From contig CAJVZH010000001.1 of NCBI GenBank assembly GCA_913020715.1, forward strand, positions 124,001 to 188,000: a stretch of DNA of 64,000 nucleotides. The letters are read 5' to 3'. The translations under genes were made by a program, and so were the position numbers. The DNA comes from an uncultured Gammaproteobacteria bacterium. Its GTDB lineage: Bacteria > Pseudomonadota > Gammaproteobacteria > PS1 > Pseudothioglobaceae. The notes beneath the pieces are model-generated. The model searched no databases. It saw nothing but the letters and a program-made list of their open reading frames with translations, and had not been told where the DNA came from. This document shows, one piece after another, positions 27,596 through 31,774 of the stretch (within the stretch, counting starts at the first letter, position 1; the number at the start of each line of letters is the position of its first letter).

Positions 27596-28597
27596 GTGGA
27601 TAAAAAAACAAGGGATAACGCCGCAATGATGCAGGGTTTGTATTGGTGGGGTATTCCAACTCTATTTCGTTGCCCGCACAATCCTGATCCAGTTGGTTGT
27701 GATATTGCACTTGTTGGCGTTCCGCACAGTACAGGCAATGGCACTACTCAGCGAGACCAACACCTTGGGCCGAGAGCGGTGCGCAACATCTCTGCTCAGG
27801 GCAGAAGGGGCCATCTTAAGTTTGGGATTTCGCCTTGGGAGATGTGCGACATTCGGGATTTAGGTGATGTACCTCTGCCAGAGGCCAACAATAATGAACT
27901 GTGCATAGAGCGAATAACTGAGTTTTATGAACATATTGCCAGTGCAGGTGCGAAGCCACTGTCCATTGGCGGTGACCACTCAATAACTGGCGGCATTCTG
28001 CAGGCAATTGCAGGCCCTAAGTCGAAGTTGACGAATGGCGAAAAGGCTGTTCTTGTTCACTTTGACGCACACACGGACGCTTTTCATCAGTTAGACCATT
28101 TTTTAGGCGCTATAAAATCTGCCGCTCACTGGGCCAGTTATTTGGTGCGCGACGGTTTTGTTGATGCCGAAAAAAGCGTCCAGGTCGGCATTCGTGGCAA
28201 TACGAGGACGTTAGACTGGCTGGATTCAAGCTACGAGTTAGGCTATGAAATTATTACCAAGGATCGCTACGATGAGCTTGGTGTGGAAAAATGTATCGAC
28301 ATTATCAGGCAACGCGTCGGCGACGCGCCGGTCTACATTACTTTCGACTTGGATTGTTTGGATGTAACTATTGCACCTGGTGTTTCCAACCTTGAGCCAG
28401 CAATTGAAGGTTTTAAGATGCCCGATGTTTTACAGTTGCTCCAAGGTTTACGCGGAAAAAATATTATCGGCGGAGACGTAGTTTGCCTTATGCCGACCGT
28501 TGATTCGCCAAATCAAATTACCTCTCATGTTGCCAATGCAGTTCTGTTTGAAATGGTTTGCTTAATCGCCGACAATGTTGGCAAGTCGGACCAATAG
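27596..28597 (+). CDS. Ureohydrolase (agmatinase/arginase) family protein
   Basis: GGDHSIT, FDAHTDAF, FDLDCLD metal-binding motifs. Confidence 0.9.
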   Translation: MDKKTRDNAAMMQGLYWWGIPTLFRCPHNPDPVGCDIALVGVPHSTGNGTTQRDQHLGPRAVRNISAQGRRGHLKFGISPWEMCDIRDLGDVPLPEANNNELCIERITEFYEHIASAGAKPLSIGGDHSITGGILQAIAGPKSKLTNGEKAVLVHFDAHTDAFHQLDHFLGAIKSAAHWASYLVRDGFVDAEKSVQVGIRGNTRTLDWLDSSYELGYEIITKDRYDELGVEKCIDIIRQRVGDAPVYITFDLDCLDVTIAPGVSNLEPAIEGFKMPDVLQLLQGLRGKNIIGGDVVCLMPTVDSPNQITSHVANAVLFEMVCLIADNVGKSDQ

Positions 28598-28615
28598 CTC
28601 TCCTTCACCGACTAG

Positions 28616-28876
28616 AGTGAAAAACTTAATGAAGTATATTCAAATGTTTGCATTAAATTTTTTCATAGTGGTGCGCTTGACTTTACATTAATATTTCTTG
28701 ATTGCGGCTGCGGTTATTTTGTTGGACGCTCTTTGGCAATGACCTATTTGCCTGTTGAGTTAATTGATTCAGCTGTTGACCTTGAGGTGGAAATATTGGG
28801 TGAATTTTACAAAGCTAAAATTGTAGCCCAGCCATTGTACGATCCAAGCGGCGTAAAAATGCGCGGGTCACAATAA
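28616..28876 (+). pseudogene. Decayed C-terminus of a GcvT/dimethylglycine (sarcosine) dehydrogenase-like protein
   Basis: Open frame with no suitable start, ending ...CGYFVGRSLAMTYLPVELIDSAVDLEVEILGEFYKAKIVAQPLYDPSGVKMRGSQ*; resembles GcvT C-terminal barrel of DMGDH-like proteins. Confidence 0.65.
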
Positions 28877-28891
28877 ATATAGGAGTTAGCC

Positions 28892-30427
28892 ATGGCCAGA
28901 GAAAGACGAAGACGCAGAGGCGGCGTAGAAGAAGTAAAAGAGGTGGTGAAAGCGCCAGCCTACATTAAACGAAAAATTCCAGTGCACGACCCATTAAGTG
29001 ATGTCGATTTGCGCATTATTGAGAACAACGCCGATACTATCCTTGAAGAGATCGGCATGGTTTTTGGCGAAGATTTAGAATGCGCCGATATCATGGTTGC
29101 TGCAGGCGGTGTACGTGATGCAAAAGACCCACATCGTGTACGCTTTCCGCGCGGCATGTGCCGTGAAATCATTCAGGCCAGTGCACCGAAGCAGTTTACT
29201 CAGCACGCTCGAAATCCTGAGCGAAGTGTTGAAATTGGCGGCGACAATATCGTTCTTTCGCCTGCCTACGGCCCTCCATTCATCCGCAATTTGGACGAAG
29301 GTCGGCGTTATGCTAATATCCAAGATTTTCGTAATTTTGTCAAACTAGCGTACCTGTCCGATAACCTCCATCATTCGGGAGGCACCATTTGCGAGCCTGT
29401 AGACTTACCGGTCAACAAACGCCATTTAGACATGGTGTATAGCCATATTAAATACTCTGACAAGCCATTTATGGGCTCGGTCACTTTGGGTGAAAGGGCG
29501 CAGGACTCGGTTAATATGGCCAAAATTGTTTTTGGTGAAGAGTTTATGAAGGATAACTGTGTGTTATTGAGTCTTTGTAATACGGTCTCCCCTCTGTCTA
29601 CGGATCCGGCAATTACCGGCTCTGTGAAAGTCTATGCTCGAGCAAATCAAGGCATGATTATTACTACCTTTATTGTTGGTGGCGCAATGGCGCCAGTATC
29701 AGTGGTGGGGGTGGCGGCGCAAAGTTTGGCAGAAGTGCTGGCAATGATGGCTTTAACACAACTGATAAAACCGGGTTGTCCGGTTGTTTACGGTACATTT
29801 GTGACATCGATGTCGATGAAATCAGGCGCCCCAACTTTTGGCACTGCTGAGGCTGCGCAAGCGATGTGCATCAGTGGAGCGTTGGCTAGAAGACTGGGCG
29901 TGCCGTTTAGAAGTGGTGGCGGCTTTACCTCGTCTAAAGTTCCAGACGCGCAGGCTGGCTATGAGGCGGCCAATACCTTGCACGCAACACTGGACGCCGG
30001 CGTTAACATTTCATTGCACGTTGCGGGCTGGCTAGAAGGTGGCTTGGCAATGGGGTATGAGAAGTTTGTTATGGATGCTGATCAGGCGGGCGTACTCGCC
30101 ACTGCTGCACGTGGTATTGATATGAGTGAAAATGGTCAAGCGATGGATGCCATTCGCGAAGTTGGCCCACAGTCACACTTCTTGGCTTGCAAACACACTG
30201 AGAAAAATTATAGAGAGGCTTTTTATATGGCCGATCTCAGTGACTCTCAGAGTTTTGAACAGTGGAAGGAAAATGGCTCACAAGACATGGAAATGGCCGC
30301 AAATATAAAGTATAAGAAAATGTTGGCAGATTACGAGTTGCCGCCGCTTGATCCAGAAATTGACAAGCAATTGCTAGATTACATGAAAAAGGTTAAAGAC
30401 AGTTACCCTGACTCCAATATTGCTTAA
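28892..30427 (+). CDS. MttB superfamily methyltransferase, non-pyrrolysine (paralog 2)
   Basis: 511 aa; IVLSPAYGPPF, GTICEPVDLPVNKRHLDMVYSHIKYSDKPFMGSVT; no in-frame amber. Confidence 0.88.
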   Translation: MARERRRRRGGVEEVKEVVKAPAYIKRKIPVHDPLSDVDLRIIENNADTILEEIGMVFGEDLECADIMVAAGGVRDAKDPHRVRFPRGMCREIIQASAPKQFTQHARNPERSVEIGGDNIVLSPAYGPPFIRNLDEGRRYANIQDFRNFVKLAYLSDNLHHSGGTICEPVDLPVNKRHLDMVYSHIKYSDKPFMGSVTLGERAQDSVNMAKIVFGEEFMKDNCVLLSLCNTVSPLSTDPAITGSVKVYARANQGMIITTFIVGGAMAPVSVVGVAAQSLAEVLAMMALTQLIKPGCPVVYGTFVTSMSMKSGAPTFGTAEAAQAMCISGALARRLGVPFRSGGGFTSSKVPDAQAGYEAANTLHATLDAGVNISLHVAGWLEGGLAMGYEKFVMDADQAGVLATAARGIDMSENGQAMDAIREVGPQSHFLACKHTEKNYREAFYMADLSDSQSFEQWKENGSQDMEMAANIKYKKMLADYELPPLDPEIDKQLLDYMKKVKDSYPDSNIA

Positions 30428-30457: not shown

Positions 30458-31774
30458 ATGAATATGTCAAGCAATAAGCGCCATCAAGCAAAAATCAATC
30501 CGCTTACTGCGGATTCGGAAGATATTTTTAGTTTAAACATGCATGTACAAGGACCAGGTGAATTAGCCGAGGGTGAATGGCAAGCGGCCGGACTTGCTGC
30601 GCCAGACATGACAGCGATTCGTGAGTATCGTTTAAATCGCGTTAGAGCCCAACTTAAGGCATCTGATTGTGCAGGGATTTTGTTGTACGATCCGCTCAAT
30701 ATTCGCTACGCTACTGATAGCACCAATATGTCGCTTTGGACCTCTCACAATGCCACACGTTATGCGTTGGTGATGACAGAAGGCCCGGTGATTATTTTTG
30801 AATTCGATGCGTATGAGTTTCTTTCGAATCACAATCCTTTAATTACCGAAGTTCGTCCTGCCATCACCTATTTGTATTTCGCTGCTGCCGAGTTTAGTGA
30901 TAAAAAAGCCAAGCTCTGGGCTGACGAAATTTCAGATATTGTTGATGAGTTTGGCGCTGGTAATAAACGTTTAGCGCTGGATCATTGCGCCCCTGAAGGC
31001 GTTTACGAACTTCAAGCCCGCGGTTTAAAGCTCCATAATGGTGAAGAGGTGATGGAGTTGGCGCGAATCATTAAATCGGATGAAGAGATGCATGCGATGA
31101 GACGCTCTATTTTTGCTGCTGAAATATCGATGAGCGTGATGCGAGAGCACTTTCAACCAGGGGTGGCTGAAACTCGACTTTGGAGCTACCTCCATGCAGA
31201 GATGCTCTCTCGTGGCGGTGAGTGGATCGAGACACGACTATTGGCAGCGGGTCCAAGAGCCAACCCATGGTATCAAGAATGCTCCTCACGACCGATTCAA
31301 AATGGTGAGATGATGAGCTTTGATACGGACTTGGTAGGTGCCTATGGTTACTGCACGGATATTTCAAGAAGTTGGTTGTGTGGTGACCAAAAGCCCACAG
31401 ATACGCAAAAAGATATTTACAGTCGAGCTTATGAGCAAGTTCAGCATAACATTTCGATTTTACGTCCTGGCATGAGCTTTATGGAAATGACAAATGAGGC
31501 CTTGGAATATCCTGAAAATGAATATCGTCATTACTCTGTGCAATACCATGGCGTTGGTTTGTGCGATGAATATCCTGCCATACCGTTCACCTGGGAGCTC
31601 AACGAGCTAAGCTATGACGGCATTTTGCAGCCAGGCATGGTGCTCTGTGTTGAAAGTTACGTTGGCCGACGCGATGGTGGCCCTGGAGTCAAACTAGAAG
31701 AGCAAGTTCTGATAACTGAAACAGGCTATGAGGTGCTGTCTAAGTATCCTTTTGAAAAACACTTGCTCCGTTAA
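30458..31774 (+). CDS. M24 (aminopeptidase P-like) protein, DddP (DMSP lyase)-like
   Basis: GGEWIETRLLAAGPRANPWYQECSSR; metal-ligand pattern FDTD...D, YHGVGLCDEYP, CVESYVG, KLEEQVL; resembles DddP closely. Confidence 0.75.
   Translation: MNMSSNKRHQAKINPLTADSEDIFSLNMHVQGPGELAEGEWQAAGLAAPDMTAIREYRLNRVRAQLKASDCAGILLYDPLNIRYATDSTNMSLWTSHNATRYALVMTEGPVIIFEFDAYEFLSNHNPLITEVRPAITYLYFAAAEFSDKKAKLWADEISDIVDEFGAGNKRLALDHCAPEGVYELQARGLKLHNGEEVMELARIIKSDEEMHAMRRSIFAAEISMSVMREHFQPGVAETRLWSYLHAEMLSRGGEWIETRLLAAGPRANPWYQECSSRPIQNGEMMSFDTDLVGAYGYCTDISRSWLCGDQKPTDTQKDIYSRAYEQVQHNISILRPGMSFMEMTNEALEYPENEYRHYSVQYHGVGLCDEYPAIPFTWELNELSYDGILQPGMVLCVESYVGRRDGGPGVKLEEQVLITETGYEVLSKYPFEKHLLR

Follow-up and report, generated by a model that had tools for sequence, protein, structure and literature searches.

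The question addressed here is what lies between the ureohydrolase and MttB-2 genes of this uncultured gammaproteobacterium, where the plus strand is open throughout from 28616 to 28876 (positions in the window, i.e. the whole stretch of 64,000 nucleotides that was analysed). The C-terminal end of this frame reads GYFVGRSLAMTYLPVELIDSAVDLEVEILGEFYKAKIVAQPLYDPSGVKMRGSQ*, and its first in-frame start is a TTG at 28733, with no ATG, GTG or TTG upstream of it, in agreement with an earlier sequence-only reading, which had described a frame without a usable start. We report that the locus is very probably the scar of one internal deletion of ~2.3 kb in a gene resembling that for dimethylglycine dehydrogenase (DMGDH), and it is confirmed as an ordinary deletion pseudogene in a bacterium of the Thioglobus/SUP05 group. 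Literature searches found no paper on this locus.

The last 54 residues of the frame match the Pfam domain GCV_T_C with 33.9 bits (E 3.1e-8), above the curated cut-off of 25.9 bits, and the match is partial, covering profile positions 37-80 of 80. The PDB matches of the fragment with E <0.001 are to dimethylglycine dehydrogenases only (best E 5.3e-5). Independently of these matches, the fragment shares, over 55 residues, 85% amino acid identity with codons 753-807 of an intact 807-aa gene in a sister genome (G001, see below). Hence the resemblance to the GcvT C-terminal barrel of DMGDH, proposed earlier for the end of the frame, is borne out by domain and structure matches alike. The N-terminal FAD domain (DAO) and the folate-binding domain (GCV_T) are absent from the window and present both in the G001 gene and in an intact paralog elsewhere in the genome under study (G000). 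As judged by alignment, the gene-derived coding part of the frame is about 28712-28876 only; the part from 28616 to about 28711 has its homologue in the non-coding leader that precedes the intact gene, and is open by accident. The view of the entire open frame as a DMGDH fossil thus stands for its downstream part, and not for the upstream third, a leader that never coded.

An intact gene at the syntenic position is present in G001, a metagenome-assembled genome of the same genus ('Candidatus Thioglobus sp. isolate UWMA-0322'), on a 20,878-bp contig (DUCF01000049.1, G001:C49). There the order is acetoacetyl-CoA synthetase, ureohydrolase, the 807-aa gene, MttB-2 and an M24 enzyme, and the flanking proteins are nearly identical to those of the window (Table 1; 95% amino acid identity for the M24 enzyme). 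The DMGDH-like gene (L047:14978-17401, 807 codons) lies between the same ureohydrolase and MttB-2 as in the window, its product has the domains DAO, FAO_M, GCV_T and GCV_T_C, and it aligns over its full length with human DMGDH (E 1.4e-181). This is what was expected if an oxidative demethylase gene was once encoded here, as had been suggested. The WHAAG motif of the DMGDH family, in which the histidine carries FAD, is present in the G001 ortholog and in the intact G000 paralog. Both also have the same four-domain order as known family members (human/rat DMGDH, PDB 5l46 and 4p9s; Arthrobacter dimethylglycine oxidase, 1pj5), whereas the window keeps the last 54 of ~807 codons and no catalytic domain.

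Aligned to the G001 locus with blastn, window positions 28551-28950 fall into two collinear arms, 28551-28719 (L047 14776-14943) and 28711-28950 (L047 17236-17472), which meet at 28711-28719. At the corresponding places G001 has an 8-bp imperfect repeat (7/8), one copy of which, GGACATTT, lies in the leader and the other, GGTCATTT, at codons 754-756, with a spacing of 2,301 bp. Relative to G001, the window therefore lacks codons 1-753 as well as the final 34 nt of the leader. These breakpoints are read against a relative that is ~11% diverged in this region and not against the strain's own pre-deletion sequence, and the junction is seen in one genome, a 26-contig draft, from the assembly alone.

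Table 1. Coordinates of the features at the locus (window positions).
Feature	Position	Strand	Evidence or remark
Ureohydrolase (arginase/agmatinase family), intact upstream flank	27596..28597	+	Pfam Arginase E 3e-60; 97.6% amino acid identity to G001
Probable orphan leader of deleted DMGDH gene, non-coding	28598 to about 28711	+	79% nt identity to L047:14776-14943
Element TTTTCA-N-TTAATATTT	28660-28696	+	Inside orphan leader
Probable deletion junction, 2,301 bp missing relative to G001	28711..28719	+	blastn arms; repeats GGACATTT/GGTCATTT
Remnant, last 54 codons and stop of DMGDH-like gene (end of GCV_T_C barrel)	about 28712-28876	+	Pfam, G001 identity, tail tree
MttB-2, MTTB-family methyltransferase, intact downstream flank, no in-frame stops	28892..30427	+	Pfam MTTB E 1.5e-203; 98.2% amino acid identity to G001:C49

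The ancestor would have had the order ureohydrolase, leader, DMGDH-like gene (FAD oxidoreductase and GcvT domains, ~807 codons) and MttB-2, as G001 still does. The deletion of ~2.3 kb, probably by replication slippage or illegitimate recombination between GGACATTT and GGTCATTT, would have removed the start together with the FAD and folate-binding domains and the greater part of the C-terminal barrel, and thereby have put the old DMGDH leader beside MttB-2, which it may now serve. The 54 leftover codons lack their own start, and most likely they fill space in the MttB-2 leader without being translated. In these respects the locus resembles bacterial truncated pseudogenes that arose by deletion, with a large internal deletion between short repeats, a lost start, a functional copy elsewhere and a remnant in the space upstream of the next gene; nothing notable differs, and the case, seen in an uncultured marine lineage, is typical.

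The sequence-only reading had called the fragment decayed; what we find is one clean internal deletion with a nearly unaltered tail, and not gradual decay. Compared with G001, 15 of the 54 remnant codons differ, seven of them non-synonymously (nucleotide identity 89%), and dS is the same for the remnant as for MttB-2 (0.36 for both), with dN being 0.062 vs 0.008. The intact tails of the DMGDH gene likewise vary more than MttB-2; the data, comprising only seven non-synonymous codons and set against tails that are also variable, at most suggest relaxed selection on the remnant. Its dN/dS of 0.17 against G001, in a tail that is still open, is compatible with weak constraint and with a recent deletion alike. 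Polarising the 15 changes placed six on the remnant branch (three non-synonymous and three synonymous), one on the G001 branch and eight on neither, too few for decay to be read from them; one of the changes on the remnant branch is an H to Y beside the junction, where four other copies compared have H.

The leader of the window is 81% identical over 67 nt to a DMGDH leader on contig C37 of another genome (G026). It is identified as the leader of the lost gene in that the G026 contig runs from acetoacetyl-CoA synthetase through this same leader into a DMGDH start. The element within it (Table 1) also occurs 24 nt upstream of the intact G000 paralog (G000:C1:66697-66733), and the pattern TTTTCA-N-TTAAYATTT has four occurrences in the genome, two of which immediately precede the two DMGDH loci, a count that is partly circular in that the pattern was derived from those leaders. 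It is possibly a shared operator or promoter, which we regard as putative. Scanning 28500-28950 for sigma-70 promoters and terminators gave none scoring above shuffled sequence.

The earlier suggestion that the oxidative demethylase has been lost does not hold for the organism. A genome search revealed an intact DMGDH paralog on the same contig, ~84 kb away (G000:C1:66757-69171), whose product shares 92% identity with the G001 protein across 805 aa. Elsewhere in the genome there are four further full-length relatives, which are more distant (33-39% identity). The deleted copy was probably redundant, and the near-identical intact gene on the same contig would be the likeliest reason why its loss was tolerated. 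The organism accordingly retains genes for oxidative demethylation, with one of two similar genes having been trimmed, and a possible misreading of the locus is corrected. Counting the remnant, the 1.55 Mb draft has 12 GCV_T_C domains; together with several MTTB-family paralogs these indicate that demethylation enzymes have expanded greatly in G000. Outside the window, at G000:C1:66757-70019 (L051:6757-10019), the intact paralog is followed within ~12 nt by a threonine synthase sequence; this has no N-terminus, and its 278 residues show 95% identity to a frame of 362 aa from contig C8. Here a duplication or insertion seems to have put the DMGDH paralog against a broken second copy of thrC.

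Phylogenies of the DMGDH copies differ between body and tail. For the tail, the tree groups the remnant with the syntenic G001 copy, adjoining the other two MttB-2-linked copies (support 92-94); for the body, the partner of the G001 copy is the G000 paralog. The nucleotide identity between the G001 copy and this paralog is 83% for codons 1-745 vs 65% for the last 51, with the drop near codon 755, and tails and bodies of very different divergence are seen in other genome pairs too. Recombination between DMGDH copies in the genus is therefore likely, as judged from these trees and identities. We considered whether the gene body had been relocated from this site to that of the paralog, given that the paralog is closest to the syntenic G001 copy in its body and not in its tail; the same conflict in other genome pairs makes a specific relocation unnecessary, and none could be demonstrated. 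A second MttB-2-linked DMGDH of G001 (contig C78; L050:446-470) is frameshifted by a 19-nt insertion, for which a draft-assembly error is possible. Together with the remnant this makes two broken copies among the four known to be MttB-2-linked, and their lesions differ. This frameshift, and the signs of recombination, are the reasons why turnover of the DMGDH gene seems to be common.

An extension of these observations, which we consider doubtful, is that DMGDH genes in this lineage are repeated exchange points where recombination swaps bodies and tails and joins separate methylamine islands, linking carnitine/acetoacetate genes to the MttB-2 operon. One product of such shuffling would then be the scar, having placed MttB-2 under a former DMGDH leader. 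It is improbable that this lineage never had a complete gene here and that the leader of one DMGDH locus was fused directly, by recombination or translocation, to the tail of another, MttB-2-linked copy. The mosaic-like DMGDH copies would fit such a history, as would G026, where the leader and the MttB-2-linked DMGDH are on separate contigs, but in G001 the complete gene stands within this same order, between flanks of 97-98% amino acid identity, which makes deletion the simpler account. Moreover, the 3' end of the leader, which the window lacks, remains similar in G001 to that of G026; with the remaining leader shared with G026, this suggests that the window represents the derived state.

It is highly improbable that the assembler skipped an intact DMGDH present at this place in the real chromosome. 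The genome is a multi-contig draft, and DMGDH copies in the genus do share stretches long enough for contigs to break in them (the end of G026:C37 falls within a stretch that C91 has too); however, the G001 leader and the final 300 nt of its gene have no exact word in common longer than 7 nt, which is too short for a k-mer mis-join, and the missing segment is on no other contig of the genome, its sole close copy being the 92% paralog in another context. A false join is thus unlikely, judged from the assembly alone and not from reads. It is likewise highly improbable that the remnant yields a functional short protein, or a translated leader peptide with control over MttB-2. The frame is open, with TTG 28733 or ATG 28739 giving 45-47 aa and ending 15 nt before the MttB-2 start, and it does not clearly exceed intact tails of comparable divergence in non-synonymous changes, but no Shine-Dalgarno-like sequence was seen by eye before either start, half a barrel domain would be unlikely to fold, and a search of the other 28 genomes of the genus gave no support to a conserved short protein, no short frame having been found at an equivalent site (clear only in G001, with the full gene).

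We also looked at ureohydrolase neighbourhoods in other SUP05/Thioglobus and in SAR11 genomes. The ureohydrolases of other Thioglobus (88-90%) were of no help in dating the loss because they are not adjacent to DMGDH or MttB-2. In SAR11 AH-324-C16 (L083:3588-6975) a DMGDH homologue (63%) lies directly before a ureohydrolase (66%), i.e. the two families are in the opposite order to that in the window.

The mtgC gene of the betaine-demethylating MtgBCD system occurs in marine Gammaproteobacteria, Ca. Thioglobus among them (PMC12478193). Presence/absence surveys of betaine-degradation genes in Thioglobus/SUP05 should expect duplicated, mosaic and broken DMGDH copies beside MttB-family genes. For the M24 enzyme that follows MttB-2 (30458-31774) the best model is the DMSP lyase DddP, with 470 bits and thus below the 600-bit cut-off, and we regard it as a putative DddP-like relative in a betaine/carnitine island.
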